DNA of 64,000 bases, from positions 1,582,214 to 1,646,213 of the forward strand of contig NZ_BKZV01000001.1 in NCBI RefSeq assembly GCF_008974285.1, in the 5' to 3' direction. Below the pieces are notes generated by a model that saw only the letters and a list, made by a program, of their open reading frames with translations, was not told the DNA's origin and searched no databases. Of this stretch, positions 15,698 to 52,842 are shown one piece after another. Position numbers and translations under genes: made by a program. Position 1 is the stretch's first letter, and each line of letters begins with the position of its first letter. This DNA comes from Thermogemmatispora aurantia (GTDB taxonomy: Bacteria; Chloroflexota; Ktedonobacteria; Ktedonobacterales; Ktedonobacteraceae).

Positions 15698-15751
15698 CGA
15701 CAAGGTGTGGGCACCACCTACCTCACCACCACCACATAAGGTAAGTGATCT

Positions 15752-37425: not shown

Positions 37426-38565
37426 TTATGGGGTCTGCGAGAGGCTGCGCAAGTGGTCGCGTTCGGCGGCCATCGAGAAGCGGCCATAATTGTAGTAGGC
37501 CGCACAGGCCCCTTCGGGCGAGACCATACAGGTCCCGATAGGCGTCTCAGGGGTGCAGGCCGTGCCAAAGACCTTGCACTCCCAGGGCTTGATGACCCCC
37601 TTGAGCACCTCGCCACACTGGCAGGCTTTGGGATCGGCCACGCGCAGGCCCGGCACTTCGTAGCGCAGCTCGGCATCCCAGTCGGCGAACTCGGGCCGCA
37701 GCTTGAGAGCACTGTGGGTGATAAAGCCGAGGCCGCGCCATTCAAAGAAGGGCCGCAGCTCCATTGTGCGGGCCATCGCCTCCAGAGCGCGTACGTTGCC
37801 CTCGGGCCGCACCACGCGCGTGTACTGGTTCTCGACCTCCGCTCGTCCCTCGCTGATCTGCTTGACCAGCAGGTAGACGGCCTGGATGATGTCCAGCGGC
37901 TCAAACCCCGCGATGACCACCGGCTTGTGATGGTCGCGGGCGATGAAGGTGTAAGGACGCATGCCGATGACCATGCTGACGTGCCCTGGACCAATGAAGC
38001 CATCCAGACGCAGATCAGGCGAGTCGAGAATGGCTTTGATGGCCGGGATAATCGTTACATGATTGCAGAAAACAGAGAAATTCTTGACTCGCTCGGCCCT
38101 GGCCCGCAGCAGGGTCACTGCCGTCGAGGGCGCGGTGGTCTCGAAGCCAATGGCGAAGAAGACCACCTGGCGATCGGGATGCTGGCGCGCCAGCTTGAGG
38201 GCGTCCAGCGGCGAGTAGACGAAGCGCACATCGGCCCCTTCGGCCTTGGCATCGAGCAGGCTACCTTTCGAGCCAGGGACGCGCATCATGTCGCCGAAAG
38301 TGGTGAAGATGACGCCCTCCGTGCGGGCAATGGCGATAGCATCATCGATGCGCCCCATCGGCAGCACACAGACCGGGCAGCCTGGGCCATGCACCAGGTC
38401 GATGCTGCGCGGCAGGACATCCTCGATGCCATGCTTGTAGATCGTATGGGTGTGGCCGCCACAGACCTCCATGAATTTGAGCGGGCGCCCGTCGCTGAGA
38501 CGGGCGATCTCGGCGGCGATCCGTTTGGCCAGCTCGGGATCACGATATTCATCGACGAACTTCAT
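37426..38565 (-). CDS. hypD: [NiFe] hydrogenase maturation protein HypD
   Basis: HypD is the Fe-S scaffold that, with HypC, builds the Fe(CN)2CO unit. Seen are CGGHTHTIYKHGIEDVLP, HGPGCPVCVLP (redox Cys pair) and the C-terminal Cys set that binds the [4Fe-4S] cluster (DPKACQCGEVLKG, CKVFGTACTPETPIGTCMVS). Length 379 is normal. Its start lies 17 nt inside the upstream SIS gene, indicating coupled translation. Confidence 0.95.
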   Translation of the reverse strand: MKFVDEYRDPELAKRIAAEIARLSDGRPLKFMEVCGGHTHTIYKHGIEDVLPRSIDLVHGPGCPVCVLPMGRIDDAIAIARTEGVIFTTFGDMMRVPGSKGSLLDAKAEGADVRFVYSPLDALKLARQHPDRQVVFFAIGFETTAPSTAVTLLRARAERVKNFSVFCNHVTIIPAIKAILDSPDLRLDGFIGPGHVSMVIGMRPYTFIARDHHKPVVIAGFEPLDIIQAVYLLVKQISEGRAEVENQYTRVVRPEGNVRALEAMARTMELRPFFEWRGLGFITHSALKLRPEFADWDAELRYEVPGLRVADPKACQCGEVLKGVIKPWECKVFGTACTPETPIGTCMVSPEGACAAYYNYGRFSMAAERDHLRSLSQTP

Positions 38566-39274
38566 CGCTGTCAGCCCTCCCTTTCTCTGCCGCTAAGCAG
38601 GTTTGCACGAGTTCAATGAGCGCATGGTAGACGGTGGCCTGCGCCTCCTGGATGCGCGGAATGTGATCGCCGGGGGAGACGATGCAGAAGTCGACCGCCG
38701 GCGAGCGCCGCGTTTTGCCGCCATCGTAACCAGCCAGGCCCACAGTGAGCAGGCCCTGCTTCTTGGCCTGCTCGAAGGCCTGCAGGACGTTGAGCGAGTT
38801 GCCGCTGGTGGAGATGCCCACGGCAATATCGCCGGGTCGCCCGAAGGCGATGATCTGGCGCGTAAAGATATTCTCAAACCCGACGTCGTTGCCCACCGCC
38901 GTGACGACAGCGATGTCGTTGGTGAGGGCAATGGCCGGCAAGGGACGCCAGTGAGCTACCGGCGGATGGAGCAGATCGGTCACCAGGTCCTGGGCGTCGG
39001 TCGTGCTGCCCCCATTGCCAAAGGCCAGCAGCGTTGCCCCCGCTGCGAAGGCCCGCGCCATGGCCTGGGCCGCCGCCAGCAGCGCCTCGCGCGCGGTGGC
39101 CAGAGTCGCGCGGCGCAGGGCGATGACGTCGCGGCACTTCTCCAGGGTGGAGTGCTGGACCTGACTGAGGACCTCCTCAAGGCTGACCTTTCCGCCCGCA
39201 AAGAGGTAAGGATAAAACAGGCGATCGTATTCCGATCCCTGGGCTTGATCGTTGGTCTCAAGGTCAGCGCTCAT
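38549..39274 (-). CDS. SIS-domain protein of the hydrogenase cluster (GmhA-like)
   Basis: The 241-residue protein has the sugar-isomerase (SIS) fold: LLAFGNGGSTTDAQDLVTDL is the phosphosugar-binding stretch of the GmhA phosphoheptose isomerase group, and DIAVGISTSGNSLNVLQAFE is the second SIS motif. Similar genes are reported within actinobacterial-type hydrogenase loci, but their role in maturation is not established. It is one of two SIS genes here. It overlaps hypD by 17 nt. ATG at 39274 was chosen for AGGGAG upstream and the family-like start; a longer frame exists. Confidence 0.8.
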   Translation of the reverse strand: MSADLETNDQAQGSEYDRLFYPYLFAGGKVSLEEVLSQVQHSTLEKCRDVIALRRATLATAREALLAAAQAMARAFAAGATLLAFGNGGSTTDAQDLVTDLLHPPVAHWRPLPAIALTNDIAVVTAVGNDVGFENIFTRQIIAFGRPGDIAVGISTSGNSLNVLQAFEQAKKQGLLTVGLAGYDGGKTRRSPAVDFCIVSPGDHIPRIQEAQATVYHALIELVQTCLAAEKGRADSDEVRR

Positions 39275-39338
39275 GGCTCGCTCCCTTTCCTCGTGCCCCC
39301 GACCTGGCCACATAGCTCAGGCAAAGGGACTTTTCTAC

Positions 39339-39626
39339 TCACTCCCTGGCAGACGTTACCGACTCGTCAAGCCGCTCCAAGGCGACGCCTCCGTGCACGA
39401 GCAGACGGTCGCCCGGCTGCACCTCGCCAAGCAGGGTGATGTCGATCAAAGCCTCGCCCAGTCCTAGACGGACGCAGGCCATGCCGGTGGCCTGGTCGAC
39501 ACTGAGCACCGTCGCCACCACGGCCTCGTCTGCGCAGGTGGGACAGTGTCCTTCGGGATCGGGCTGACAGAACGGTCGTAGTGACACGGATGGCGACAGA
39601 ACGATGCGCTCAGATTCCTGGTTCAT
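39339..39626 (-). CDS. HypC/HupF-family protein with internal Cys pair
   Basis: The 95-residue protein has the HypC fold pattern (VVATVLSVDQATGMACVRLG, EVQPGDRLLVHGGVALERLD) but lacks the MC start of classic HypC. Instead it has CPTCADEA about 25 residues in. This matches a HupF/HypC-like form seen in actinobacterial-type hydrogenase loci. A true hypC lies two genes upstream, so this one is a second chaperone or an adaptor, by inference. Its ATG overlaps the stop of the upstream SIS gene (ATGA). Confidence 0.75.
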   Translation of the reverse strand: MNQESERIVLSPSVSLRPFCQPDPEGHCPTCADEAVVATVLSVDQATGMACVRLGLGEALIDITLLGEVQPGDRLLVHGGVALERLDESVTSARE

Positions 39627-40234
39627 TGCAGTAACCCCTCGTGTTCGAAAAAGACGTGCACCAGCTCCCACAAGACGTGATAGAGCGTTTCATGGACCTC
39701 CTGCACAATGAAGGGGTCATCAGCGGGCACGACAAAGCGATAGTCGACCGCCTCCTGGCTGAGCAAGCCCCCATCGCCGCCCAGCATGGCCAGCGTGAGC
39801 AGTCCCATTTGCCGCGCCTCTCTGAGAGCGGCCAGGACGTTGGGGCAGCGCCCGTCTGGCGAGAAGCCCAGGGCAATATCCTGGGGCCGTGCCAGGACAC
39901 GCAGCTGTTCGCTAAAGGGCATCTCAGGTCGTCCGCCCGCCATCAGACCGCTGAGGGTGGCACTATCGTTGGTCAGGGCCAGAGCTGGTAAGGCGCGCTT
40001 GCCCACGATGACCGGATGGACGAATTCGACGGAGACGTGTTGCGCATCGGTGGCCCAGGCCCCATTGCCAAAGGCCAGCAGGCGCCCCCCCTGATGGAAG
40101 CGGCGGGCCATCGCCCAGCAGGCTTCGGCAATGCGCGGCGCCTCGTGCTCAAAGAAGGTCGCCGGCAGACTGGTGCTGAGCGCAAAGCGCCGCTCTAGCA
40201 CGGCCTCCAGCGCTTCGGGCATCGCTTGAGGCAT
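39623..40234 (-). CDS. second SIS-domain protein of the hydrogenase cluster
   Basis: The 203-residue protein has LLAFGNGAWATDAQHVSVEFVHP, the GmhA-like site with an altered middle (GAWATDA in place of GGSTTDA), and DIALGFSPDGRCPNVLAAL, where the usual STSG is changed to SPDG. The loss of the Ser/Thr residues that hold the phosphate suggests weak or no isomerase activity, so it may be a regulatory or structural partner of the other SIS protein. It is translationally coupled to the HypC-like gene by an ATGA overlap and follows hypC by 33 nt. Confidence 0.75.
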   Translation of the reverse strand: MPQAMPEALEAVLERRFALSTSLPATFFEHEAPRIAEACWAMARRFHQGGRLLAFGNGAWATDAQHVSVEFVHPVIVGKRALPALALTNDSATLSGLMAGGRPEMPFSEQLRVLARPQDIALGFSPDGRCPNVLAALREARQMGLLTLAMLGGDGGLLSQEAVDYRFVVPADDPFIVQEVHETLYHVLWELVHVFFEHEGLLQ

Positions 40235-40267
40235 GAGATAACCACCTCCTCCCCTTCCTTTCTCTCA

Positions 40268-40540
40268 CTACTCGATCTGGCTGGAGTGCAGCAGCTTCAG
40301 CTCATCGGTGTAGACATCGCCCATCTGCTGGAGCGCTTTGAGCGTCTCGTGCGCCTCCGCCTCATCGATTTTGCTCATGGCAAAGCCGACGTGGATGAGC
40401 ACCCAGTCGCCGGGGGCAATCCCTTCGGAGCGCACCAGGGCGACGCTGACGTTGCGCTTGACGCCCGAGACATCGACGCGCGCGATCGAGTTGGCATCAT
40501 CGACGATTTCAAGCACTTGACCGGGAATTCCCAGACACAT
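40268..40540 (-). CDS. hypC: [NiFe] hydrogenase maturation chaperone HypC
   Basis: The 90-residue HypC begins MCLGIPGQV; the Cys at position 2 is needed to bind the iron unit and the large-subunit precursor. The core VALVRSEGIAPGDWVLIHVGFAM is canonical. It hands the Fe(CN)2CO group from HypD to the large subunit. GAGAGG is upstream of the ATG. Confidence 0.93.
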   Translation of the reverse strand: MCLGIPGQVLEIVDDANSIARVDVSGVKRNVSVALVRSEGIAPGDWVLIHVGFAMSKIDEAEAHETLKALQQMGDVYTDELKLLHSSQIE

Positions 40541-40655
40541 CGCACTGGCTCCTCTCTTTTCTCTAGTCTCCTTCTGCTGCGAAGCACACTATGTCCGGCA
40601 AGATGCGCGGCAGCTCCTTTACTGAACAACCAGGGCCTGGTTCTGGTCCACATTC

Positions 40656-43070
40656 TCACGAGATAAGATCAGGCTCTCCCTTCCGGCCTGCTGCCGCCAG
40701 GCGGGCCGCGGCCACTGCCAGCTGTCCCAGACTGAGACCGCCGTCGTTCGGGGGCACACGGCGATTGAGATAGACCGCGAAGCCGCTGGCTTCTAGCTCA
40801 GCGACGAGGGTTTCCAGCAGCAGGCGGTTCTGAAAGACGCCGCCGCTGAGGGCAACCTGGGAGAGGCCGCAGACCTCCCTGATGCGCTGACAGAGGTCGA
40901 CGAATATGGCCACCAGCGAGCGGTGGAAGCGGCGCGCAAGACGTGCTCTTTCGTAGCCATGCTGGAGGTCCTCGACCAGGGCTGAGAGCAACGGGGAGAC
41001 ATCGATCTGGAGCGGCCCCTGACCCGAGCGGAGCAGGGCGTAGGGATAGGGCGGCTGCTCGTCGGGCGGCACACTGCTGGCCAGCATCTCCAGCTCGATG
41101 GCCGCCTGGCCTTCATAGAGCACCTCGTCGCGCAGGCCGAGGATGGCGGCGACGGCATCGAAGAGGCGCCCCAGGCTGGAGGTCAGTGGCGAGTTGAGGC
41201 CGCGCTCGATCATCTGCGTGAGAATGCGCCAGGTGCTGCGATCGAGACGCCGCGTGAGAGGAATGTCCAGGGTCAAGAAGCGCTCGCCGTACGCCCGCGC
41301 CAGATAGACCGCCGCCATGCGCCACGGCTGGCGAACGGCCTGCTCTCCCCCCGGAAGCGGCACATAGGCCAGATGGGCCAGACGCTCGAAGCCGCAGAGA
41401 TCGGCCAGCAGGATCTCACAGCCCCAAATGGCCCCGTCGGTACCGTAGCCCGTGCCGTCGGCGGCAATGCCAATGACTGGCCCGCTCAGGCCATGCTCAG
41501 CCAACACGCTGGCAATGTGGGCATGATGGTGTTGGACACCGATGCGTTGCTCGATGTCACTGTCCAGCGCGTACCTGGTCGCCAGATAGTCGGGATGCAG
41601 ATCATAGGCCACGACCTCGGGTACAATGTCAAAGAGGCGCTGGAAATGGCGGATGCCCTCGCGGAAGGAGGCCAGGGTCTCCAGGTTCTCTAGATCGCCG
41701 ATGTGGTGCCCGACAAACGCCTGGCGCCCTTTACCCAGACAGAAGGTGTTTTTGAGATGGCCCCCGCAGGCCAACAGCGGACGCGGCAGATCAAAGGCCA
41801 GCGTGATCGGCTCGGGCACATACCCCCGCGAGCGGCGGAAGAGCTGCTCGCCTCCAGCCACCAGGCGCGTGACCGAGTCGTCGCAGCGCATGTGGATGAC
41901 GCGGTTGTGGCTGAGCATGCCATCCGCGATGCCGGCCAGACGCTGACGGGCCTCGTCGTCGCGGTAGGCAATCGGCTCCTCGCTGTGGTTGCCGCTGGTC
42001 ATCACCAGCACCGGCGGGCGATCAGCGGGAATGAGCCGGGCAAAGGCGTGCAGCAGGAGATGATGGAGCGGCGTGTAGGGAAGCATCAGACCCAGGGTCC
42101 GGTAGCCTGGGGCCACTTCGGGCGCCACTGGGCAGGCGGGACGCTGCTCGAGCAGGACAATGGGCCGGCGCGGCGATTGCAGCAGGGCGGCCTCGCCCTC
42201 GCTGACGAAGCAGAGGCGCCGCGCTGTCTCCAGATCGGGCACCATGAGGGCGAACGGCTTGGCTTCGCGATGCTTGCGCCGCCGTAGCCGCTGGACAGCC
42301 ACGGCGTTGAGGGCGTCACAAGCCAGATGATAGCCGCCCAGACCCTTGATGGCCAGAATCGCCCCCCGGACCAGCTGCTGAGCCACCTGCTCGATAGGGG
42401 TCGCCTCCTCGACCTCCGCGCCGCTGGCCGAGAGCACCAGCTCCCCCTCAGCCCACAGCTCCAGACGAACCTGCGGCCCACACTGCGGGCAGGCATTAGG
42501 TTGAGCATGAAAGCGCCGATTGGCCGGGTTCTCATACTCAGCGCGGCAGGCAGGACACATGGCGAAGACGCGCATGGTCGTCTGCTCACGATCGTAGGGA
42601 ACATCCTGGATGATGGTGAAGCGCGGCCCGCAGTTGGTGCAATTAATGAAAGGATAGCGATAGCGACGATCAGCGGGATCAAATAACTCGCGCAGGCAAT
42701 CAGAGCAGGTGGCCATATCGGGGGAGATCAGCGCAGCACGCTCGCTGCTCTCCCGGCTCTCTGCGATCACAAAGGTCGTCTCCTGCCGCAGCGGAAGCGG
42801 TTCAACGGTCACGCTCTCGATACGCGCCAGCGGCGGTGCTTCCATTTGCAGTCGCTCGCGGAATTGGGCGAGTGCCTCCGCCGGCCCTTCGATCTCGATG
42901 GTGACACCGCGACTATCGTTGCGCACGAAGCCAGCCAGGTGGAGACGCTGGGCCAGTGCATAGACGAAGGGGCGAAAGCCCACCCCCTGCACAATGCCTT
43001 TCACGGTGAGACGCTGCCGCAGTCGTGCTGGCATGGTGGCAGGCGCTCCTCCTGACACACGCTCGCTCAT
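40656..43070 (-). CDS. hypF: carbamoyltransferase HypF
   Basis: HypF makes the thiocarbamate on HypE from carbamoyl phosphate. The 804-residue protein has all four parts in order: an acylphosphatase domain (KGIVQGVGFRPFVYAL), a double zinc finger (CSDCLRELFDP, CTNCGPRFTII, CPACRAEYENP, CPQCG), a YrdC domain and a Kae1-like C-terminal domain (HHHAHIASVLAEHGL). Length is near normal. It overlaps hypB by 4 nt (ATGA). Confidence 0.95.
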   Translation of the reverse strand: MSERVSGGAPATMPARLRQRLTVKGIVQGVGFRPFVYALAQRLHLAGFVRNDSRGVTIEIEGPAEALAQFRERLQMEAPPLARIESVTVEPLPLRQETTFVIAESRESSERAALISPDMATCSDCLRELFDPADRRYRYPFINCTNCGPRFTIIQDVPYDREQTTMRVFAMCPACRAEYENPANRRFHAQPNACPQCGPQVRLELWAEGELVLSASGAEVEEATPIEQVAQQLVRGAILAIKGLGGYHLACDALNAVAVQRLRRRKHREAKPFALMVPDLETARRLCFVSEGEAALLQSPRRPIVLLEQRPACPVAPEVAPGYRTLGLMLPYTPLHHLLLHAFARLIPADRPPVLVMTSGNHSEEPIAYRDDEARQRLAGIADGMLSHNRVIHMRCDDSVTRLVAGGEQLFRRSRGYVPEPITLAFDLPRPLLACGGHLKNTFCLGKGRQAFVGHHIGDLENLETLASFREGIRHFQRLFDIVPEVVAYDLHPDYLATRYALDSDIEQRIGVQHHHAHIASVLAEHGLSGPVIGIAADGTGYGTDGAIWGCEILLADLCGFERLAHLAYVPLPGGEQAVRQPWRMAAVYLARAYGERFLTLDIPLTRRLDRSTWRILTQMIERGLNSPLTSSLGRLFDAVAAILGLRDEVLYEGQAAIELEMLASSVPPDEQPPYPYALLRSGQGPLQIDVSPLLSALVEDLQHGYERARLARRFHRSLVAIFVDLCQRIREVCGLSQVALSGGVFQNRLLLETLVAELEASGFAVYLNRRVPPNDGGLSLGQLAVAAARLAAAGRKGEPDLIS

Positions 43071-43771
43071 GATACTGCGCCTCCCATGGCGTGGGGCGCT
43101 TCGCTGACGGCGGCCCCTGAGGACTTGCCAGCGAAGGCCAGCAGCCAGTCACACCAGGTGTCCAGTCCCTCGCCGCTGCGGCAGCTCAGCGCGAAGATTT
43201 GCAGCCCTGGGTTGACGGCCAGCGCCTGAGCACGCACGCGTTCGGGATCATAGTCCACGTAGGGCAAGAGATCCAGCTTGTTGAGCACCAGCACCTGGGC
43301 AGCGGCAAAGATCTGCGGATACTTGGCTGGCTTCTCATCCCCCTCGGTTGTGCAGACCACCACAACCCGCAGGTCCTCGCCCAGGTCCCAGGCCGCCGGA
43401 CAGACCAGGTTGCCGATGTTCTCGATGAAGAGCAGGTCGAGCCGCTGCAGATCAAGCGCCTCCAGCGCATCGCGCACCATCTGCGCCTCCAGATGGCAGG
43501 CCCCGCGCGTATTGATCTGTACCACCTGGGCCCCGGCGGCCTCCATGCGCTCAGCGTCCAGGCTGGTCTCGATATCTCCCTCGATCACCCCTATGGCCAG
43601 CCGCCCACGCAGCCGGGCCACGCTGCGTTCGAGCAGGGTGGTCTTCCCTGCCCCTGGACCGCTCATCAGGTTGATGCAGCGCACGCCAGCCGCCGCCAGC
43701 CGTTGGCGCACCTCTGCCGCAACCTCCTCATTGGCCGCCAGGATATGTCTGGCAATGGTCACTCTGGGCAT
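43067..43771 (-). CDS. hypB: nickel-incorporation GTPase HypB
   Basis: HypB is the GTPase that with HypA inserts nickel into the large subunit. Walker A is GPGAGKTTLLER near residue 38, followed by EGDIETSLDAERM and the switch region ENIGNLVCPAAWDLGE. The N-terminal CxxCxxC and His-rich nickel store of some HypB proteins are absent, so this is the short form. It follows hypA by 12 nt and overlaps hypF. Confidence 0.93.
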   Translation of the reverse strand: MPRVTIARHILAANEEVAAEVRQRLAAAGVRCINLMSGPGAGKTTLLERSVARLRGRLAIGVIEGDIETSLDAERMEAAGAQVVQINTRGACHLEAQMVRDALEALDLQRLDLLFIENIGNLVCPAAWDLGEDLRVVVVCTTEGDEKPAKYPQIFAAAQVLVLNKLDLLPYVDYDPERVRAQALAVNPGLQIFALSCRSGEGLDTWCDWLLAFAGKSSGAAVSEAPHAMGGAVS

Positions 43772-43783
43772 AGCTACCGCTCC

Positions 43784-44170
43784 TCATCCGTTATGCGCCT
43801 GCTCGTGGCCTCCCTGCTGGGTGTCAGCCCCAACCTCCATGTCGAGGATCTGCAACTCGGTGCCCGAGAGAATGCGCGTGGACCAGGTGCCACAGGCGGG
43901 ACAGCGCGCGATGAAGTCCTCGACGGCAAAAGAACTGGCACATGGCTCGCACCAGGCCCGATGCGGGCTGATCTCGATCGCCAGCCGCGCCTCGGCCAGG
44001 ACGGGCGAGAGCGAAGCCAGCATGGCAAAGGCCGCTTGCAGGGCCTCCACCAGGACCCCGCTGGCTTCGCCCACGCGCAGATGCACCGTCCGCACCCGCT
44101 GTACACCGCACTCCTCCGCCCTGGCCTCTACCACCTCGATAATGCTCTCAGCAAGCGCTAGCTCATGCAT
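43784..44170 (-). CDS. hypA: nickel chaperone HypA
   Basis: The 128-residue HypA begins MHELALAESI; His2 is part of the nickel site, which is why the ATG at 44170 rather than the upstream GTG was chosen. The zinc site is CEPC then CPACG. The C-terminal tail is His/Gln-rich (QQGGHEQAHNG). It forms a complex with HypB. AGGTGGG is upstream of the ATG. Confidence 0.92.
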   Translation of the reverse strand: MHELALAESIIEVVEARAEECGVQRVRTVHLRVGEASGVLVEALQAAFAMLASLSPVLAEARLAIEISPHRAWCEPCASSFAVEDFIARCPACGTWSTRILSGTELQILDMEVGADTQQGGHEQAHNG

Positions 44171-44275
44171 CGCTACCCCCACCTTTCGCCCTCGACCGAA
44201 CGGGGCCTATGCTGGCTCCGCCCTCTTCTCAGCGCCTGTTCACGCCCGGCGCCACGCACAGCCTCCTTCCTCTCT

Positions 44276-44380
44276 CTACATCGAGCGAATACGCAAATAA
44301 CGCTGAATATCAGGGAGTTGCTGTCTGAGCACCAAGAGCAACAGCACCGACACAATGGCGCCTGTGATCCACTTGACCAT
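44276..44380 (-). CDS. 34-residue single-helix protein (DUF6893-like)
   Basis: A very short gene. AAAGGAGG lies 9 nt before the ATG at 44380, and the protein is MVKWITGAIVSVLLLLVLRQ then QLPDIQRYLRIRSM. It is one membrane helix followed by a basic tail with PDIxRYxRIRSM. Tiny proteins of this pattern are known in actinobacterial-type hydrogenase clusters. It may anchor or help assemble the hydrogenase at the membrane; this is inferred from its place between the maturation protease and hypA. Confidence 0.7.
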   Translation of the reverse strand: MVKWITGAIVSVLLLLVLRQQLPDIQRYLRIRSM

Positions 44381-44434
44381 TAGTACACGCCTCCTTTCAG
44401 TCAGTGAGAGCCAAGCTCGTCCGCGAAACGAGGA

Positions 44435-45037
44435 CTATGCAGTCTCAGTCGAATCTGAGCCTTGATAGAGCTGCCTGACCACCGTATCGAGGATGTGCAG
44501 GGCGCGTTCGACCGCCGCCTGCACGGGGGGACTGAGCCCCATCTGCAGCTCCTCCTCGATGGTATCTGTTTCCCAAGGGGTTGGCTCGCAGCCGATGAGT
44601 AGGGTCGGCACAGCAGGCGCCCCGAGCGCACGGGCATAGGTCAGCACGCGCACCGGGTCGAGGCTGTGCGCCTCCAGGCCCAGCTTGCCAGCAGCCAGAT
44701 CGGCTGCCTGATCCTCCGGAGGAAGCAGCGGCTTGAGCAGATAGAGCGTTCCCGGGCTGCCACCACGCGGCACCGCATCGATGAGGATCAGCGCCTCGTA
44801 GCCGTCAAGAAGCGCATAGGCCAGCTCCAAACCACGAATGCCAAAGTCAATGACCTCAACTCCCGGTGGATAGCGCCCGCGTGCCCGCTGAGCCACCGCG
44901 CAGCCGAAACCGTCGTCGCCCAGAAAGATATTGCCAATGCCAGCTACCAGCAGGCGACGCAGCCCGCCGCGGGCTGCCTGCTCGAAAGCGGCTTCGAGAG
45001 CCTGCAGTAGTCCCTGCTGGTGCTCATCTCTCTCCAT
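44435..45037 (-). CDS. hydrogenase maturation protease (HyaD/HycI family)
   Basis: The 200-residue protein has GIGNIFLGDDGFGCAVAQR, the nickel-sensing start of [NiFe] hydrogenase endopeptidases, then DFGIRGLELAYALLDGYEALILIDA. It should remove the short C-terminal peptide after the conserved His of the large subunit once nickel is in place. ATG at 45037 was chosen because GAGGTGGGC precedes it and the motif starts soon after; an upstream frame extension overlaps the preceding gene and lacks family sequence. Confidence 0.88.
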   Translation of the reverse strand: MERDEHQQGLLQALEAAFEQAARGGLRRLLVAGIGNIFLGDDGFGCAVAQRARGRYPPGVEVIDFGIRGLELAYALLDGYEALILIDAVPRGGSPGTLYLLKPLLPPEDQAADLAAGKLGLEAHSLDPVRVLTYARALGAPAVPTLLIGCEPTPWETDTIEEELQMGLSPPVQAAVERALHILDTVVRQLYQGSDSTETA

Positions 45038-45044
45038 GCCCACC

Positions 45045-45386
45045 TCATTCCCCCTCCCCGAGCGGCTCCACTTCCTCCGGGAAGAAGAAGAAGCGATGAC
45101 CTGGTAAGACGCGCTCGTCCCATTGCTCTCTGCCGGGATCATCATCGAGGGTGACCACCAGATAGAGGCGGTTCTCGAAGTCTTGCTGGATGACTTCGAC
45201 GCGCCCGATCCGTCCCTCTAGCAGCAGATCAAAGGCATCGGCCAGGTGCCCCTGACGCGCTCGCCCCGGACAGAGACGCACACGCGTGCCCGCCCTCACC
45301 TGACGTCCCGCGATGATGATCATCTCCGGGGGAGGATAATCCTCACCGGGAAAGGTCCAGCCACGGCTGTCGTCTGTGAGGCTCAT
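45045..45386 (-). CDS. small protein of the hydrogenase cluster, unknown function
   Basis: The 113-residue protein has a soluble, beta-rich look (VRLCPGRARQGHLADAFDLL, GRIGRVEVIQQDFENRLYLVV) and the acidic end FFFPEEVEPLGEGE. I do not recognise a named family. Its start overlaps the stop of the upstream gene (ATGA) and its stop is 7 nt from the protease start, so it is firmly part of the operon. By pattern it could be a small SH3-like or cargo-binding domain. Confidence 0.7.
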   Translation of the reverse strand: MSLTDDSRGWTFPGEDYPPPEMIIIAGRQVRAGTRVRLCPGRARQGHLADAFDLLLEGRIGRVEVIQQDFENRLYLVVTLDDDPGREQWDERVLPGHRFFFFPEEVEPLGEGE

Positions 45387-46456
45387 GGCTCAGCCTCCCC
45401 CAGGGAGCGCAGCCCGCGAATGGTGCCGTGGAGCTGCAGCCACTGCTCCGGCGTCAGGTGCTCGATCTGCTCCAGCACCGCCCGTCCGCGGGCATCGCCA
45501 CGGCGAATCTGCTCTTTCTCCTCGTCGGTCAGGGTCAAGATACGCAGGGCCAGCAACTCATCGATCTCGGTGCCGTCGAAGAGCGGAGCTGGACTTTCCG
45601 GGGCGATCTGCGGATAGTCGTAGAGGATGATCGGCGAGGAGAGCAGGCTGTCACGCTCACCTGGCTCGCCAACCAGCACCGGCCAGGTGCCACGGTTCTG
45701 ACAGGAAGCAGCCACCTGGCGCAGCTCCTCTGGCGGCTCTATCAGGGAGACAAAGGCGCCTCCTTCTACCTGAAGGATGGTATGCGTCGAGACGCAGGCC
45801 GCGAGCAGGGCCTCCTGCGCCCGTAGCTCTGCCGGCTGCTCCACAGGGGTCGTATTCGTAATGGTGACGCGCAGCTTGAAGAGATCCGCGTGCTCGGGCA
45901 TGGCCTCAGCTGCGATGCTGACCCCCCCGCTTAGCGCGCGCCCCTCGCGCACCACCCTCCTTGATCCACTTGTTGCCTTACTGGCCGGCTCCTCCTCCAC
46001 CAGGCACCGTGCCGGAAAGGCGAAGGGCAGGCTCCGCTCAGCCTGAAGCAGCTCCCTCAGCGAGAGCGCTGCCGCCCCAACCGTGCGCTCGACGCCTTCC
46101 TCCCAGACGCCTTCAAAGGGAGCTTCTGCCCAGATGGGCGCTCCTTCCGGGGGTCGTTCGATCGTCTGCCCTCCTGGGCTTTGCTCATCCTCGCGCCTGC
46201 AGCGCATCAGCTGGAGAAAGCGCACCGAGACCGAGAGCTGCGCCTTGCCCCCCCGACCCGGCTCGGCCTCAAGCAGGCACTCCGTCTGCATGCGCCAGGG
46301 TTCCACCTCGCCACCCGCTTCGCTGTAAGCGCGCGGATAGAGCACCCCATAGGTCCAGCGCTGCCGGTTCTTGAGGGCGGAGTGACGGTATGGGTAGAGC
46401 AGATAGCCCTCATAGAGCACCGCCTCGGCAATGGCCTGGATCTCCTCCAGCTTCAT
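45383..46456 (-). CDS. hydrogenase-cluster protein of unknown function (357 residues)
   Basis: A soluble protein opening with IQAIAEAVLYEGYLLYPYRHSALKNRQRW, a start I associate with hydrogenase-linked proteins of actinobacterial-type loci, where it commonly follows a DUF6084 gene as here. The rest is mixed alpha/beta with no catalytic motif I can name; the middle part SVSVRFLQLMRC and the C-terminal EEKEQIRRGDARGRAVLEQIE are helical. ATGA overlap with the DUF6084 gene on one side and with the 113-residue gene on the other shows tight coupling. Confidence 0.7.
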   Translation of the reverse strand: MKLEEIQAIAEAVLYEGYLLYPYRHSALKNRQRWTYGVLYPRAYSEAGGEVEPWRMQTECLLEAEPGRGGKAQLSVSVRFLQLMRCRREDEQSPGGQTIERPPEGAPIWAEAPFEGVWEEGVERTVGAAALSLRELLQAERSLPFAFPARCLVEEEPASKATSGSRRVVREGRALSGGVSIAAEAMPEHADLFKLRVTITNTTPVEQPAELRAQEALLAACVSTHTILQVEGGAFVSLIEPPEELRQVAASCQNRGTWPVLVGEPGERDSLLSSPIILYDYPQIAPESPAPLFDGTEIDELLALRILTLTDEEKEQIRRGDARGRAVLEQIEHLTPEQWLQLHGTIRGLRSLGEAEP

Positions 46457-47115
46457 GACTCCCTTTCCTCCTGTTCTGCCGCCTCTAGCAGGCGCAGCAC
46501 GGTCTCCTCCCAGGTCGGCAGGCCCTGGGCCAGCTTGTAGGCAGAGAGCCGGTCGAAGACCTGGCGCTGCAGACGAAGCCAGGCGCTCCCGGGGTAGAAG
46601 CGGGCGATCAGCTCACGCCAGCACTGCAGCGGCAGCCCAAAGGCGGCCTCCTTCGACCAGGAGATCGGAGCGACCTGCAGGCGCCCCTCTTCGCTCTCGT
46701 AGAAGACTGTACCGCTGAAGAGGAAGCGCAGCGGGATCACTCCCTCCTCGCCTTCCAGGGCGGCAAAATACTTGGTGCTGACCACCTCGAAATCGTAGGT
46801 GCAGGGCACCGCCAGCTCGACCTCGGTACGCTCACCAAAGGCCGGCACCACTGTTCCGGCATGGGTCCAGAGGAGTGGGTGCACGGTTTCACCCCAGCGC
46901 TCCGGCTCGCCAAAGACCTCCAGCAAGCGCGCCTGAGCCGTCGGGCTGTAGCGGCGGCGCGTGGCCTCGATCTGGATCTGGACCCGTACGACCACGCTCT
47001 GCACCGGCTGCGTGGGCACCCGATTGCTCACCTGCAGCCGGAAGAGCAGCATGGGAGCGGCGGCATAGGCTGGCACCTCTGCGCCCAGAATGGCAAACTC
47101 AAGATCCGGTATCAT
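46453..47115 (-). CDS. DUF6084 family protein of the hydrogenase cluster
   Basis: The 220-residue protein shows the family pattern VRVQIQIEATRRRYSPTAQ, FGEPERWG, PLLWTH and VPCTYDFEVVSTKYFAAL, ending LPTWEETVLRLL. These proteins are found next to DUF5947 and NifU-like genes in actinobacterial-type hydrogenase loci; their role is unknown. The N-terminal half is beta-rich, suggesting a binding fold. The ATG at 47115 is 17 nt inside the DUF5947 gene. Confidence 0.75.
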   Translation of the reverse strand: MIPDLEFAILGAEVPAYAAAPMLLFRLQVSNRVPTQPVQSVVVRVQIQIEATRRRYSPTAQARLLEVFGEPERWGETVHPLLWTHAGTVVPAFGERTEVELAVPCTYDFEVVSTKYFAALEGEEGVIPLRFLFSGTVFYESEEGRLQVAPISWSKEAAFGLPLQCWRELIARFYPGSAWLRLQRQVFDRLSAYKLAQGLPTWEETVLRLLEAAEQEERES

Positions 47116-47896
47116 GTTCCCCTTCCCCCAGGTCCGGCGCCGCTCGTCCAGCCGCCGTCGTCACGATCTCGGCCTGCTCCTGCAGCTCGGCGAAAAAGGT
47201 CCGCAGCACCTGCTCCACCTCCAGGCCGCCGCTCAGACCGCGCCAGCAGGCGCGGATCAGGCCCGTCAAGCGATAGCAGACATCGATCGGTACCAGATAC
47301 GTCTCGCGCGCCCCGCGGACGCGATTGACCAGCAGAGCCTCGACATCGGGCAGCAGCTCCCCCAGCAGCGGGTAGCGGGCCACCAGCCCCTGCCAGCCAT
47401 CGAGATCCAGCAAGGACTCCGTTGCACCCGCCGGCCCGGGATAGAAGGCCAGCATCCGCCCGGCTGGGCTGCTGTAGAAGAGGTAGACCAGGTTCACCGG
47501 CAAGCCCAGCGCCTCCCACTCGGCGTCAGTCAGCTCCAGATCGCGCAGCCAGCGATAGCGCTCGGGGATCAGTCGATACTGCCCCTGGCCCGCCTGGCTC
47601 CCGGCACGGAAGAGCAGCGCACATGGATCACAGACACAGAGCACCTGACGCCGCTCGGGGGCCAACAGATGGCGATGGGTTGGCAACAGGAGGGCGCTGC
47701 ACAGCTCGCAGCGCTCCAGGGGGCGGCGCTGCGGCTGGCCTTCGCGCGACACGAAGCGCCGCAGCGCGCCCAACGGGAGCGCCACAGGGGCCTGACCTGG
47801 CTGCTGCTCGCCCGGGCGGCCCGCCTCCTCGCGCCAGCTGAGCAGCCCAGGTGCCGACTCGGGACGCCAGCTACCCACGCTCCTCCTGACCATCAC
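47099..47896 (-). CDS. DUF5947 family protein of the hydrogenase cluster
   Basis: The 265-residue protein has CELCSALL followed by VCDPCALLF, two CxxC pairs suited to zinc or an Fe-S cluster, then the family stretch LGLPVNLVYLFYSS, YPGPAGATESLLDL and VPIDVCYRLTGLIR. It belongs to the DUF5947 group typical of group 1h [NiFe] hydrogenase operons. A role in electron transfer or Fe-S handling is possible but unproven. The GTG at 47896 (or ATG 3 nt later) follows the NifU-like stop by a few bases and so is reached by reinitiation. Confidence 0.78.
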   Translation of the reverse strand: MMVRRSVGSWRPESAPGLLSWREEAGRPGEQQPGQAPVALPLGALRRFVSREGQPQRRPLERCELCSALLLPTHRHLLAPERRQVLCVCDPCALLFRAGSQAGQGQYRLIPERYRWLRDLELTDAEWEALGLPVNLVYLFYSSPAGRMLAFYPGPAGATESLLDLDGWQGLVARYPLLGELLPDVEALLVNRVRGARETYLVPIDVCYRLTGLIRACWRGLSGGLEVEQVLRTFFAELQEQAEIVTTAAGRAAPDLGEGEHDTGS

Positions 47897-47899
47897 CGC

Positions 47900-48559
47900 T
47901 CACTCTCCTCTCAGGCCGGTTCCGGTCTGGGGCGTCGCCACCGCTGCTAGAGATCCACCGCGCCGCCGCGGGACAAAGACCACCGGGAGCGGTGTTCCAG
48001 CCCGCGACGGCATCGGCTCCACCGTTCCACCCTCCGCCTCCCCGATCCCCTCAATCTCCAACCCGCATAGATCGGGAGCCGCACGATAGACCGCCTCTTC
48101 GATCCTCTGCCGCAGATACTGAAGCGAGGCGGGACAGCCGCCACAGCTCCCGCTCAGGCGCAGCGAGGCCACGCCATCGGCCACACGCAGGAGCGCCAGC
48201 TCACCCCCATGTCCGCGCACCACAGGCCGCAGCGCCTCCAGCGCCCGCTCCACCCGCTCCTTGAGCGGGACAGGATGCAGATCATGTAAGAGCAAAAGAC
48301 CAGCGACCAGCTCATCGCTCGCCAGCAGCTCGAGCAAGCGTGGCCCGGTAGCAGGGGACAACGTGCGCGTGCTCTCCGCCGCCGTTAGCAGCTCCACGAT
48401 TCGTCGTAGGCCCTCGCCATAGAGCGCCACCAGCGCCCGGACCAGCTCCTCCGCGAAGGCGCGCATCTGGGGATCGGGCAGCTGCTCGATCTCTGCCAGC
48501 AAGCGCTCGATCTCGTGAGGCGGTTGCAGCTCTTGACGCGCCTGCATGTCGCCGCTCAT
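47900..48559 (-). CDS. NifU-like C-terminal domain protein of the hydrogenase cluster
   Basis: The 219-residue protein has an N-terminal helical half and a C-terminal NifU-type domain with GSCGGCPASLQYLRQRIE, the CxxC motif that binds or transfers an Fe-S cluster. It is placed directly after the large subunit gene, where it probably supplies or carries an Fe-S cluster for the small subunit or an electron acceptor. ATG at 48559 has AGGAGG upstream; a longer frame exists. Confidence 0.83.
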   Translation of the reverse strand: MSGDMQARQELQPPHEIERLLAEIEQLPDPQMRAFAEELVRALVALYGEGLRRIVELLTAAESTRTLSPATGPRLLELLASDELVAGLLLLHDLHPVPLKERVERALEALRPVVRGHGGELALLRVADGVASLRLSGSCGGCPASLQYLRQRIEEAVYRAAPDLCGLEIEGIGEAEGGTVEPMPSRAGTPLPVVFVPRRRGGSLAAVATPQTGTGLRGE

Positions 48560-48628
48560 GGCCTTCTCCTCCTCCTGAATGAACGCCGCCCGCGTCGGCA
48601 CGGGCCTCTCAGCCCCTCTACGTTGACG

Positions 48629-50425
48629 TTACGGCACCCGTCCAAAGGTCGGCGAATGCACCACCTGCAGCTCCTTGCCGTCGCCGAGATACATATGTAC
48701 CCCACAGGGCAGACACGGGTCGAAGCTGCGCACCGCCCGCATGATATCGATGCCCTTAAACTTGTCGGGACCGTTCTCCTCGAAGATCGGCGTATTCTGC
48801 ACCGCATCCTCGTAGGGGCCTGGTGTTCCGTAGATATCGCGCACGCTGGCATTCCAGGGCGTCGGCGGATAGGGATGATAGTTGGCAATCTTGCCGTCCT
48901 CGATCACCAGATGATGCGAGAGCACCCCGCGCACCGCCTCATGGAAGCCGCAGCCGATCGCCTCCTTGGGCACCGTAAAATCGCTCCACGTCTTCGTGCG
49001 GCCCGCGCGGATCTCCGCCAGTGCCTTCTCCACACAATAGAGCGCCACCGCCGCCGCATACGCCTGGAAGTACGAGCGGGCCCGATCACGCTCCAGGGCA
49101 TTGCTCCACTTGGGGATCTTCCACTCAAACTCGACTTCGGGCTTGAGGGCCGTCTTCGGCAAGCGGATCTTCACACTGTGCCCAGTCGCCTTGATGTAGC
49201 CGCCCAGATCGACCAGGCCCGCCAGCGCCGTCACCCACAGGCGCGCCAGCGGCCCCCCACCGGTATCCAGCGCCAGGTACTGCCCCGTGCGCTTATCGTA
49301 CCAGCGCGGCGACATCACCCAGCTATATTTCCCCTTGAAGTCGCGCTTCTGCGGCTTCGGAATCGTCGTCTGGTTCCAGGGATGGCGCTGATCGACCGGG
49401 TTGCCCAGCGGATCACGATCCACAAAGGTCCGCTCGTTCTCCCAGTCCTCGTAGTAGGAGCTGCCCAGCAGAATGCGAATGCCCAGATTGATATCGACCA
49501 GGCTCGTCGTCACCAGCTCGCCATCGACTACCACGCCCGGCGTCACGAACATCGCCCGTCCCCACTTCTCCATCGTGCGATAGTCGTAGTCGCAGACCTC
49601 GGGGTCCTGGAACGATCCCCAACAGCCCAGCAACACGCGCCGCTGGCCCACCTTCTCGTAGCCCGGCAGGGCCTGATAGAAGAAATCGAAGAGGTCGTCA
49701 TGCAGCGGCACGACCTTCTTCATAAACTCCACATACTTCATCAGGCGCACCAGATAATCGGTGAAGAGCTGGACCGTCGCCACCGTCCCTACGCCGCCAG
49801 GATAGAGCGTCGACGGATGCACATGGCGCCCCTCCATCAAGCAGAACTTCTCGCGCGTCAGGCGACTCATCTGCAGCGCCTCGCGATAGAACTCGCCCGT
49901 GAAGGGATTGAGCGCCCGCATAATATCGGCGATCGTGCGATAGCCGTGGTCCTTGGCATGCGGGGCCTCGGTCTTCTGAGCCAGCTCCCAAACGCCCGGA
50001 TTGGTCTCCCGCACCATCTGCTCGCAGAAATCGACCCCGACCAGGTTCTCCTGGAAGATGTTGTGGTCAAACATGTACTCCGCCGCCTCACCCAGGTTGA
50101 GAATCCACTCCCCGAGGGCCGGCGGCTTCACGCCGTAGGCCATATTCTGGGCATACACCGAGCAGGTGGCGTGATTATCCCCGCAGATCCCACAGATGCG
50201 GCTGGTGATAAAATGGGCATCGCGCGGGTCCTTGCCCTTCAGGAAAATGCTATAGCCGCGGAAGATCGACGACGTGCTGTAGCACTCCACCACCTGCCGC
50301 TTCTTAAAATCGATCTTGGTATAGATCCCCAGGCTGCCGACAATACGCGTAATCGGGTCCCAGGCCATTTCAATGATCTGGCCAGGTTCAGCCGGGGCAG
50401 CCTGACGTCGCACCTCAGTGGTCAT
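48629..50425 (-). CDS. [NiFe] hydrogenase large subunit, group 1h-like
   Basis: The 598-residue catalytic subunit oxidises H2 at a NiFe(CN)2CO site. The L1 motif is RICGICGDNHATC (Cys78, Cys81) and the L2 motif is DPCLPCGVH (Cys571, Cys574, His577). About 20 residues follow that His, the peptide to be removed by the maturation protease. Length and the paired small subunit fit the actinobacterial-type (group 1h) class known for slow, very high-affinity, oxygen-insensitive H2 uptake. The start is the ATG with AAAGGAGAG 6 nt upstream; the frame extends further upstream without family sequence. Confidence 0.93.
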   Translation of the reverse strand: MTTEVRRQAAPAEPGQIIEMAWDPITRIVGSLGIYTKIDFKKRQVVECYSTSSIFRGYSIFLKGKDPRDAHFITSRICGICGDNHATCSVYAQNMAYGVKPPALGEWILNLGEAAEYMFDHNIFQENLVGVDFCEQMVRETNPGVWELAQKTEAPHAKDHGYRTIADIMRALNPFTGEFYREALQMSRLTREKFCLMEGRHVHPSTLYPGGVGTVATVQLFTDYLVRLMKYVEFMKKVVPLHDDLFDFFYQALPGYEKVGQRRVLLGCWGSFQDPEVCDYDYRTMEKWGRAMFVTPGVVVDGELVTTSLVDINLGIRILLGSSYYEDWENERTFVDRDPLGNPVDQRHPWNQTTIPKPQKRDFKGKYSWVMSPRWYDKRTGQYLALDTGGGPLARLWVTALAGLVDLGGYIKATGHSVKIRLPKTALKPEVEFEWKIPKWSNALERDRARSYFQAYAAAVALYCVEKALAEIRAGRTKTWSDFTVPKEAIGCGFHEAVRGVLSHHLVIEDGKIANYHPYPPTPWNASVRDIYGTPGPYEDAVQNTPIFEENGPDKFKGIDIMRAVRSFDPCLPCGVHMYLGDGKELQVVHSPTFGRVP

Positions 50426-50620
50426 CGTGCTCTCTCCTTTGCCGAACAGGCACCAGCCAGCAAGAGAGCGGGAACAGCTGCTGATCTCCTGCCGCCGTAA
50501 GCAATCGTCCAGACAAGCAAACAAGACGAAGGGAGCAGCACACACCTGCACACAGCAACCTGAGCGAAACAAAGCTCGGGCGCTGTCGCCCGTCAGAGGC
50601 GTTGGGCGCTCGTTCCCTCT

Positions 50621-51649
50621 CTACCAGCGCGGCTGATAGCCGGTCGCCAGCTCGCGGCCCTTACGGCGCCACGAAGGCTCTTTATTGAGTGTTGACTTCG
50701 TAATACTGCGCAGCGCCCGAATCGCACCACCATAGGCGCCGGCGATCCCCGTAGACAGCTTGGCGCCAGGTGGCTCATCCATGAAGGGCATAAACTTATC
50801 GGGGAAGCCGGGCATCGTACAACCGATACAGATCCCGCCCACATTGGGACAACCACCAATGCCGGCCATCCACCCCCGCTTCGGCACGTTACACTGCACT
50901 ACCGGACCCCAGCAGCCGAGCTTTACCAGGCATTGGGGAGCGCCATACTCCGTAGCAAAATCGCCTTGTTCATAGTAGCTACCGCGATCGCAGCCCTCAT
51001 GTACAGTTCTGCAGAAGAGCCAGGTGGGGCGTCCGAGGTCATCAAGGGGGATCATCGGTGCCAGGCCTGCCGCCTGATAGAGCAGATAGAGAAGCGTCTC
51101 CATGAAATTGTCCGGTTGCACAGGGCAGCCAGGGACATTGACAATGGGGATGCCAGCCCACGACTTCCAGCCCTGGCCCAGATAGTCGGCCAGGCCCATC
51201 GCCCCGGTGGGGTTGCCCTGCATCGCATGGATGCCGCCGTAGGTGGCGCAGGTCCCGATGGCCACCACCGCCCAGGCCTTCGGCGCCAGCCGATCGATCC
51301 ACTCGCAGGTCGTGATCGGCTGCCCGGTCGCCGGATCGGTACCGAGGGCAGCCCAGTAGCCCTCGCGCTTAATGCGCTCATTGGGGACCGAGCCTTCGAC
51401 CACCAGCACAAAAGGATCAAGCTCGCCGCGTTCAGCCTGGTACCACCAGGTCATAAAGCTGTCGCCGCCCAGCTCATAGGCGAGGACAGGATTGTGCAAA
51501 TAGACGCGGGGAAGTCCCGGAATCGCTCCCAGGATCACATCTTCCAGGCTTGGCTGGCTGGCCGCCGTAATCGAGACCGAGTCGCCATCACAGCCCAGGC
51601 CCGCGGTGATCCAGACGATGTGGACCGCCTCCACGCGCGTCCTGGTCAT
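50621..51649 (-). CDS. [NiFe] hydrogenase small subunit, group 1h-like
   Basis: The 342-residue electron-transfer subunit carries the Fe-S clusters. Near the N-terminus the proximal-cluster motif is GLGCDGDS: the usual second Cys is Asp (Cys20, Asp23), the 3-Cys/1-Asp ligation known from the actinobacterial hydrogenase of Ralstonia. Later Cys stretches are IGTCATYGG, VPGCPVQ, LGCWGP and GICIGCTMPGFPDKFMPF. There is no Tat signal, so the enzyme is not exported. AAGGAGG lies about 8 nt before the ATG. It is the first gene of the cluster, 200 nt upstream of the large subunit gene. Confidence 0.93.
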   Translation of the reverse strand: MTRTRVEAVHIVWITAGLGCDGDSVSITAASQPSLEDVILGAIPGLPRVYLHNPVLAYELGGDSFMTWWYQAERGELDPFVLVVEGSVPNERIKREGYWAALGTDPATGQPITTCEWIDRLAPKAWAVVAIGTCATYGGIHAMQGNPTGAMGLADYLGQGWKSWAGIPIVNVPGCPVQPDNFMETLLYLLYQAAGLAPMIPLDDLGRPTWLFCRTVHEGCDRGSYYEQGDFATEYGAPQCLVKLGCWGPVVQCNVPKRGWMAGIGGCPNVGGICIGCTMPGFPDKFMPFMDEPPGAKLSTGIAGAYGGAIRALRSITKSTLNKEPSWRRKGRELATGYQPRW

Positions 51650-51706
51650 AGCGGTGCCTCCTTCAACAAGAGCGCGCCAGTGCTTGCCCTCAGTCAGGAC
51701 AGTCAC

Positions 51707-52842
51707 TCACTGCCTGATGAACTAACCGGCACGCAGACAAACAACATAGACACACGCACACGATGCCTTCGCTGCCGCTAGATGCAGCGCATCCCGGGCT
51801 TCCGTGCTCAACCTAACAAACTAACTCTTTTAGTTACTCCTCTCCTCTCCTCCAGCACCCCTATATTGAGAATAGCGAGCTACCCCAAATCGCGAGCCTC
51901 CCCGTCTGGATACCAGGGCAAGCGCACGGCATCGCCAGGGAGAGAGAGGGAGAAAACTTGACGTACCATTCCTGGCAGGCACGGCAGACAAATATCCGTG
52001 CAGCGCACCCTCACGAGCATCGACCTGGCTTGAGCCTGGACCAGACCAGCGTCTGCTGCCCCTGTCCCATCTGAGCACTTTGAGCACAAAGCACAAGATA
52101 CAGCCCCTCTTTTTGCGCCACCACCAGAGTGCCAACAGCACAGAGGAGGAAACCTCTCTCCAGTCAGGCCAGGACTGACAGCGCACTCTCTTCCTACCTT
52201 CCCAGCAGGCTGCCAGGCAAGGAGAGCGAAGGGCAGCGCTGGTCACCAGGGCAACAAGACAAGCGGCAAGGCCTAGTAGGAGAAAGCTCAGCCCGAACTC
52301 ATTGGGCCCAGCTTACAGATAGCATGAAGGGCGCACACTACAGCGACGAAGTAGTTAAAGCACCAACAAAGGAGCGGATAAGGGGTTCCGATGTAAACAG
52401 CACAGCCGGAAAGCCCTCAGCCGGTCCGTCGTCCCACCTCATGAGCACAAGACGCGCTAACGATACGACGTGCAGGGACCAGCTCTTCCCTGAGAGCACT
52501 GAATGCTTCCTTGTTCTAATAAGGCTCGCGATAGACACTTCCGCTCAGGGATGGACTTTGGCTTCTTCAGAAGAATTGTTGAGGTTCACGTCTGGTAAGC
52601 AACCCGAGACACAATCAACTATAGCATAGACAAATCAAGAGAGTCAAGTCTGAATCCCTGCAAAGCAGACATTGGCGCTGCAACGCAGCTGCACCTGTCT
52701 CACATTGTTATACGTTGTTTCACGCCAGGCAACATCTAAGATTTTCCTACCGGGGGACTTGACAAACGAACGGTGATAGCCTTAGTATATAGAACATGCA
52801 TTCTAGGCCCATATGGGCCGGCGAAAAAGGGGAAAATACTCC
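51707..52842. other. 1.1-kb gap upstream of the hydrogenase operon
   Basis: No coding region is supported on either strand. It includes the hydrogenase promoter region on the minus strand, of which I can see only a small dyad (TAACT 51822-51826, AGTTA 51832-51836). Further on are TTCTTCAGAAGAA at 52563-52575 (palindrome about a central A) and the promoter of the next gene near 52759. Confidence 0.45.
52759..52819 (+). promoter_or_regulatory. promoter and GGCCCATATGGGCC palindrome before the FG-GAP-like gene
   Basis: TTGACA (52759-52764) and TAGTAT (52783-52788) are 18 nt apart. Just downstream, in the expected untranslated leader, lies the perfect 14-bp palindrome GGCCCATATGGGCC (52806-52819), a likely operator or short hairpin. 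Confidence 0.55.

Follow-up and report, generated by a model that had tools for sequence, protein, structure and literature searches.

Our analysis showed that a 34-codon frame on the reverse strand of the window (the whole 64,000-nucleotide stretch of Thermogemmatispora aurantia DNA that was analysed) encodes a real protein of a group 1h [NiFe]-hydrogenase (Hhy) locus. The protein is a member of PF21833 (DUF6893), a family to which Pfam gives no function, and the gene, or a longer protein bearing its tail, was found in 67 of 70 named Hhy loci that are complete at its place (among the matches listed), in six phyla. We propose, with confidence evenly balanced for and against, that the protein may be a membrane anchor or docking subunit with a cytoplasmic C-terminus (C-in) for Hhy, which itself has no anchor. 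Much of the uptake of atmospheric hydrogen by soil has been attributed to group 1h hydrogenases, and with the Hhy enzyme bacteria can live on hydrogen taken from air. The features of the locus, all on the reverse strand, are as follows.

50621..51706, reverse strand: HhyS, hydrogenase small subunit (PF01058 and PF14720; best PDB match HofK 5aa5, 7e-182)
48629 to about 50425-50572, reverse strand: HhyL, group 1h [NiFe]-hydrogenase large subunit (PF00374)
47900..48601, reverse strand: NifU-domain protein, in HhyE's place (PF01106, 52.4 bits)
47099..47896, reverse strand: DUF5947 accessory protein (PF19372, 227 bits)
46453..47115, reverse strand: DUF6084 accessory protein, the marker of group 1h loci in this analysis (PF19562, 288 bits)
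45383..46456, reverse strand: 357-aa accessory protein (no Pfam or NCBIfam match; model pLDDT 83.7)
45045..45386, reverse strand: 113-aa accessory protein (no Pfam or NCBIfam family above cut-off; homologues in related loci)
44435..45037, reverse strand: maturation protease of the HycI/HupD type, start approximate (PF01750, 50.6 bits; TIGR00072)
44390..44394, reverse strand: GGAGG ribosome-binding site, 9 nt 5′ of the ATG of the 34-aa gene (from the sequence)
44276..44380, reverse strand: 34-aa DUF6893 gene, TAG stop included (open reading frame; PF21833, 2.1e-11, 44.1 bits)
44315..44371, reverse strand: hydrophobic helix, predicted membrane span, codons 4-22 (Kyte-Doolittle mean 2.35 over 17 residues, 1.96 over 19)
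44279..44314, reverse strand: conserved C-terminal tail, codons 23-34 (PDIQRYLRIRSM; no amino-acid change in the genus)
43784..44182, reverse strand: HypA (PF01155, 104 bits)
37426..43771, reverse strand: hypB, hypF, hypC, SIS-domain genes and hypD (open reading frames and homologous blocks in related loci; identities by resemblance)

The genes run in the order hhyS, hhyL, NifU-domain gene, DUF5947, DUF6084, 357-aa gene, 113-aa gene, protease gene, 34-aa gene and hypA, after which come hypB, hypF, hypC and more maturation genes. The initial annotation had placed the small gene in a hydrogenase operon, and this was borne out by its position between the protease gene and hypA of an Hhy locus. 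The HhyL translation carries both TSRICGICGDNH and SFDPCLPCGVH, which are the large-subunit motifs of group 1h (PMC5364354), and the solved structure closest to HhyS is HofK of Cupriavidus necator. The nearest named locus among the matches listed is that of T. tikiterensis T81, whose HhyL is 99% identical and for which atmospheric H2 oxidation has been reported (excerpt of PMC6776052). Hydropathy analysis identified no membrane span in HhyS or HhyL (best 19-residue means 1.22 and 1.35), in agreement with the earlier claim that the hydrogenase has no membrane signal of its own, and inspection of the HhyS N-terminus by eye revealed no twin-arginine (Tat) signal. Promoter and terminator scans of 43700-52200 gave results at chance level (2 found vs. 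1.2 expected and 5 found vs. 3.8 expected, respectively). The DUF6084 protein was modelled well (pLDDT 93.4), with TM-scores against the PDB of up to about 0.36 by query length, and the model of the 357-aa protein had no PDB match at E ≤ 0.001; neither comparison pointed to a docking partner. Among the maturation genes, 38549-40234 of the window encodes two GmhA-like proteins with SIS domains as well as a second HypC-like protein, which are retained in other loci of the Ktedonobacterales. In many other loci, a single longer gene of about 425-490 aa stands in place of the 357-aa and 113-aa genes (45045-46456).

Translation from 44380 to 44276 on the reverse strand gives MVKWITGAIVSVLLLLVLRQQLPDIQRYLRIRSM, with an ATG start, 34 codons and then TAG. 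The gene starts 54 nt past the protease gene, and 93 nt separate it from the annotated GTG of hypA. The 34-residue protein and its strong ribosome site, both noted earlier from the letters alone, were confirmed, the latter as the GGAGG listed above. The PF21833 score exceeds the family cut-off of 24.6 bits and covers profile positions 5-32 of 32. The frame had also been called too short for routine gene finding, which stands only in part, since the family is already in Pfam. NCBIfam gave no match for the protein, and no solved structure with it was found in the PDB, where the lone match had an E of 7.8. We then screened the 427 ATG starts of 25-60 aa frames in the six frames of the window, counting nested starts apart, with thresholds that we set ourselves (5 or more of 6 Shine-Dalgarno positions matched, and a mean Kyte-Doolittle value over 17 residues that exceeds 2.0). 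Only one start, that of the 34-aa gene, passed both.

Seven Thermogemmatispora copies (21 pairs) gave a pN/pS of 0.20 for the gene, with 0.27 in the helix and 0.00 in the tail; the helix varies and the tail is constant. The last 14 codons showed 59 synonymous and no non-synonymous differences, summed over the 21 pairs, which are not independent of one another. A 27-base degenerate pattern covering the tail end and stop has a single occurrence in the host genome, which is this gene. To regard the frame as a chance ORF without a product would suit its shortness, but the real matches nearly all have E values from 1e-7 to 1e-15, while the best reversed-sequence control reached 0.92. This candidate was ruled out by the Pfam match, the purifying selection and the conservation in six phyla, and we give it next to no probability.

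The 19-residue hydropathy maximum of the 34-aa protein is the highest among the 17 locus proteins scanned, with HypD close at 1.81, although its unbroken hydrophobic stretch is short (W4-L18). The membrane helix and basic end of the initial annotation stand as one hydrophobic helix and a conserved basic tail, while insertion into the membrane is a prediction. Its motif RxxRM is better given, for the family, as RY[LI][RK][IML]RxM; the consensus of the tail is P-D-x-x-R-Y-L-R-I-R-x-M-COOH. Among 97 distinct proteins (from 103 sequences), P was found in 82, D/E at −11 in 95, R at −8 in 96 and Y at −7 in 95, followed by L/I-x-I/M/L and then R in 81, one free position and M at −1 in 95. These sequences were picked by profile search, so the conservation is partly due to selection of the counted set. 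The copy of G190 (L017), with TGA in frame, and the second match in L122 (E 0.3, opposite strand) were left out, and that of L081 (Methylocystis) was kept in spite of a score of 0.36 and no PF21833 match.

In 79 short members, the net charge on the C side of the helix compared with the N side was higher in 68, equal in 7 and lower in 4. This bias favours a predicted topology with the C-terminus in the cytoplasm. The hydrophobic segment joins the tail directly in 59 loci, whereas in nine loci, all Acidobacteriota, the tail follows a spacer on a longer protein (both counts among the matches listed); both forms occur in L104 and L126. The acidobacterial long forms match the PF21833 profile by their tail part alone, some of them below the cut-off. 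From these nine loci, the tail seems to be the working part. Cys and His are absent from the 34-aa copy, which therefore has no residues typical of cofactor binding.

For the survey of related loci, at least 80 named loci were fetched by a scan with an HhyL alignment and searched with a profile built from Chloroflexota and plasmid members. The profile matched at E < 0.01 in 64 of them and at 0.1 and 0.3 in L116 and L105, which were also counted because the place and ending fit. Ten named loci end before the place of the gene, which leaves the 70 complete ones (among the matches listed). The 67 positive loci are these 66 and L153, where the frame continues into the protease frame. The 66 loci belong to Actinomycetota (30), Acidobacteriota (13), Chloroflexota (8), Pseudomonadota (8), Verrucomicrobiota (5) and Planctomycetota (2), among the matches listed. 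No copy was found in L112, L137 or L141, which are complete named loci among the matches listed. The initial annotation had named the lack of a similar small gene in related loci as what would speak against it, and the reverse is clearly the case.

The most constant neighbour of the gene is the protease gene, not hhySL. Among the matches listed, the protease gene adjoins a copy in 63 of the 66 profile-found loci, the copy lying after it in 55 (3′ of it by 6-490 nt) and before it in 8; L116 has no protease match, and the copy lies elsewhere in L110 and L122. In Verrucomicrobiota, the block has moved upstream of hhyS with the gene still beside the protease. This constancy suits an alternative role in maturation, in which the protein would be a membrane-bound assembly factor, keep the protease or the still unprocessed large subunit at the membrane while Hhy is assembled, and be absent from the finished enzyme. 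We consider this rather unlikely. It would agree with the protease neighbourhood, with L153 (Mycobacterium palustre, about 15270-16000), where the frame of the small gene enters that of the protease in one assembly, and with G505 and G460, which retain the gene, protease and hyp genes with no HhyL detected. However, the join in L153 may be either natural or a sequencing error, G505 and G460 may be leftovers of recent losses, one copy in L122 adjoins an additional hhyS at a distance from the protease, and, within the block, DUF5947, DUF6084 and the 357-aa gene are no less constant as neighbours. To our knowledge, proteases of this type serve other [NiFe]-hydrogenases with no comparable membrane helper.

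The gene was further compared with the DUF6084 marker in sampled genomes. In Chloroflexota, PF21833 was found in 24 of 301 genomes (28 matches) and DUF6084 in 26, with both in 22, one in 6 and neither in 273. The corresponding numbers were 22 and 24 of 246 in Actinomycetota (both 19, one 8, neither 219) and 4 and 8 of 149 in Acidobacteriota (both 4, one 4, neither 141). One-sided Fisher tests, which ignore shared ancestry, gave 2.9e-27, 5.7e-21 and 3.5e-6, respectively. Hydrogenase or hyp genes lie beside 55 of the 60 PF21833 matches in the three phyla. All 28 chloroflexotal matches, that of the window included, are in stretches with Hhy structural, accessory or hyp genes; besides the match, the contig of G172 and the second contig of G053 carry hyp genes only, and that of G190 carries accessory and hyp genes with a DUF6893 copy interrupted by an in-frame stop. 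Such genes were found within 3 kb of 23 of the 27 actinobacterial and 4 of the 5 acidobacterial matches; L169, L190, L193, L195 and L198 have no hydrogenase or hyp genes within this distance.

Copies outside hydrogenase loci in L169, L193, L195 and L198 could mean that the gene has a separate membrane function and is merely carried in the operon, while another protein brings Hhy to the membrane; two other hypothetical membrane proteins are described in the operon of Methylacidiphilum fumariolicum SolV (excerpt of PMC7174314). We regard this as very improbable, as the Hhy marker is present in the genomes of L193, L198 and L195, the last of which also contains L169, and as 55 of the 60 matches have hydrogenase or hyp surroundings. 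The DUF6893-like ORFs of L193 and L195 (G402 and G499) end in PDFQRYKQLRDM and PDFQRYQQLRDM and adjoin a low-complexity protein with repeated R-R-M-P-S-V-L-G motifs, away from any hydrogenase genes.

DUF6084 was found without PF21833 in 13 genomes, of which 12 (all except G606) were followed up. Our own profile identified the gene or the long tail form in G036, G054, G564 and G305 (the last via locus L109), and in G231, G244, G352 and G413 the sequence ends before the place of the gene. In G410, G434, G492 and G618, the gene is really absent at its place, and G410 and G434 have a divergent HhyL (67-68% identity). Five genomes, G172, G190, G460, G505 and G524, have PF21833 without DUF6084; the G524 match is probably spurious, as it covers profile positions 3-25 only and lies inside a long frame. 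The Hhy locus of G460 (L231) has a shortened hhyS, and hhyL was not detected in it, while the small gene, protease and hyp genes are retained.

A clear copy was also found in seven of nine plasmid loci, with a weak one in L081 and none in L084. No gene is listed at the place in any of the five plasmid loci with gene tables, which are incomplete. C. necator pHG1 carries a DUF6893 copy (38.9 bits to PF21833) at 66753-66851, counted from the start codon that we chose, where no gene is listed. Because of this, C. necator, with its cytoplasmic enzyme, was rejected as a gene-less comparison strain. Its homologously expressed enzyme has been described as cytoplasmic, with a low affinity (excerpt of PMC7174314), which, with the gene present on pHG1, speaks against a simple anchor; at a guess, overproduction could outrun the anchor there. 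HhyS is annotated as 'hydrogenase expression protein HypE' in pHG1 (L080, 10905-11960), and the same label stands on HhyS in four more plasmids (L081, L082, L083 and L086).

Studies of group 1h enzymes have described a membrane association to which such a protein would be relevant. According to an excerpt of PMC7174314, the Methylacidiphilum enzyme has no helix or signal, its activity associated with the membrane exceeds that in the soluble fraction, its apparent H2 binding is tighter at the membrane, and the association, called unexplained there, is the same in Mycobacterium smegmatis and Pyrinomonas. Membrane association may set the high affinity of group 1h, and no partner is identified in the excerpts of PMC7174314 and PMC6883350. 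The small gene, whose 12-residue tail is nearly identical in distant Hhy loci, is a good candidate for encoding the factor that would keep the enzyme membrane-bound. The initial annotation had suggested that the protein may tether the hydrogenase, and this is supported in part. In the anchor or docking reading, the product of the gene would cross the membrane once, the N-terminus facing outwards and the tail facing the cytoplasm. The tail would dock there on the Hhy complex, either on HhyLS or on an accessory protein attached to these subunits, and would thereby keep Hhy at the membrane, near the quinones and respiratory chain. The predicted single-span C-in form, the invariant tail and the presence with the enzyme in six phyla fit an anchor.

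We counted in favour of an anchor the lack of a span in HhyS and HhyL, the charge bias, the tail on spaced acidobacterial forms, the co-occurrence with DUF6084, the 55 of 60 matches in hydrogenase or hyp surroundings and the published membrane association of a group 1h enzyme. Counted against it were the protease as constant neighbour, the cytoplasmic C. necator enzyme, G505 and G460 without HhyL, the short membrane run, and the Hhy loci where the gene is lacking (L112, L137, L141, G410, G434, G492 and G618) or was not found (L084). More tentatively, the 12-residue tail might be a docking code that, on different membrane segments, a single short helix in most phyla and the longer spaced form in Acidobacteriota, recruits group 1h hydrogenase to the membrane and so gives it affinity for H2 at air level; this extension we hold to be possible and somewhat doubtful.

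Small predicted transmembrane proteins have been reported in other high-affinity hydrogenase loci, namely HylTM1-5 of group 1l and two proteins of group 1m (excerpt of PMC9561532). They are alike in being short, predicted to span the membrane and encoded in such loci. However, the HylTM genes separate the genes of the large and small subunits, whereas hhyS and hhyL are adjacent here and the 34-aa gene lies 4 kb downstream, after the protease; the group 1m proteins have 82-92 aa compared with 34, and both sets were told apart from ours by description only. No such report for group 1h was met in the open-licence PMC literature, as far as its excerpts go. This company of small single-helix proteins, and the almost invariant terminal Met, as a specific contact might require, would also suit a role as a small accessory subunit of mature Hhy, affecting its stability, its access to quinones or its regulation, and dispensable for attachment. 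We judge this unlikely; the 34-aa copy has neither Cys nor His, and the evidence does not separate such a role from anchoring.

HucM of the group 2a hydrogenase Huc is alike in being a non-catalytic link of an anchorless hydrogenase to membrane and quinones, a role that is putative here. It differs in having 188 residues, a tetrameric stalk and amphipathic helices with a coiled coil, and in being membrane-peripheral, compared with 34 aa and one hydrophobic helix (excerpt of PMC10017518). In the architecture of group 1d, a cytochrome b and a C-terminal helix of the small subunit likewise anchor the hydrogenase to the membrane. That system, however, combines a large haem protein with a helix that is part of the small subunit, in an enzyme that is exported, and HhyS here is without such a helix. 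A search of the full text of the open-licence PMC literature found no paper naming DUF6893, and no description of this small gene of the Hhy operon was recognised in that literature. Our analysis adds the rule for the tail and ties PF21833 to the group 1h hydrogenase. The near-constant single-helix gene is a defined, testable candidate for the membrane partner of Hhy, and heterologous expression of Hhy without it may miss a component.

Two DUF6893-type copies, partly diverged, occur per Hhy locus in L048 and L049 (G071 and G111), L242 (G054), L045, L046 and L050. In Acidobacteriota, a second hhyS-like gene, about 70% identical and with its cysteines kept, lies upstream of hhySL in L122 (5261-8680) and also in L111, L113, L120, L126 and L128. 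In L122, a DUF6893 gene directly precedes it, and genes for a PAS-type histidine kinase and a LuxR-type response regulator, with homologues in the other loci, follow it. The second hhyS-like gene, kinase and regulator together look like an H2-sensing system.
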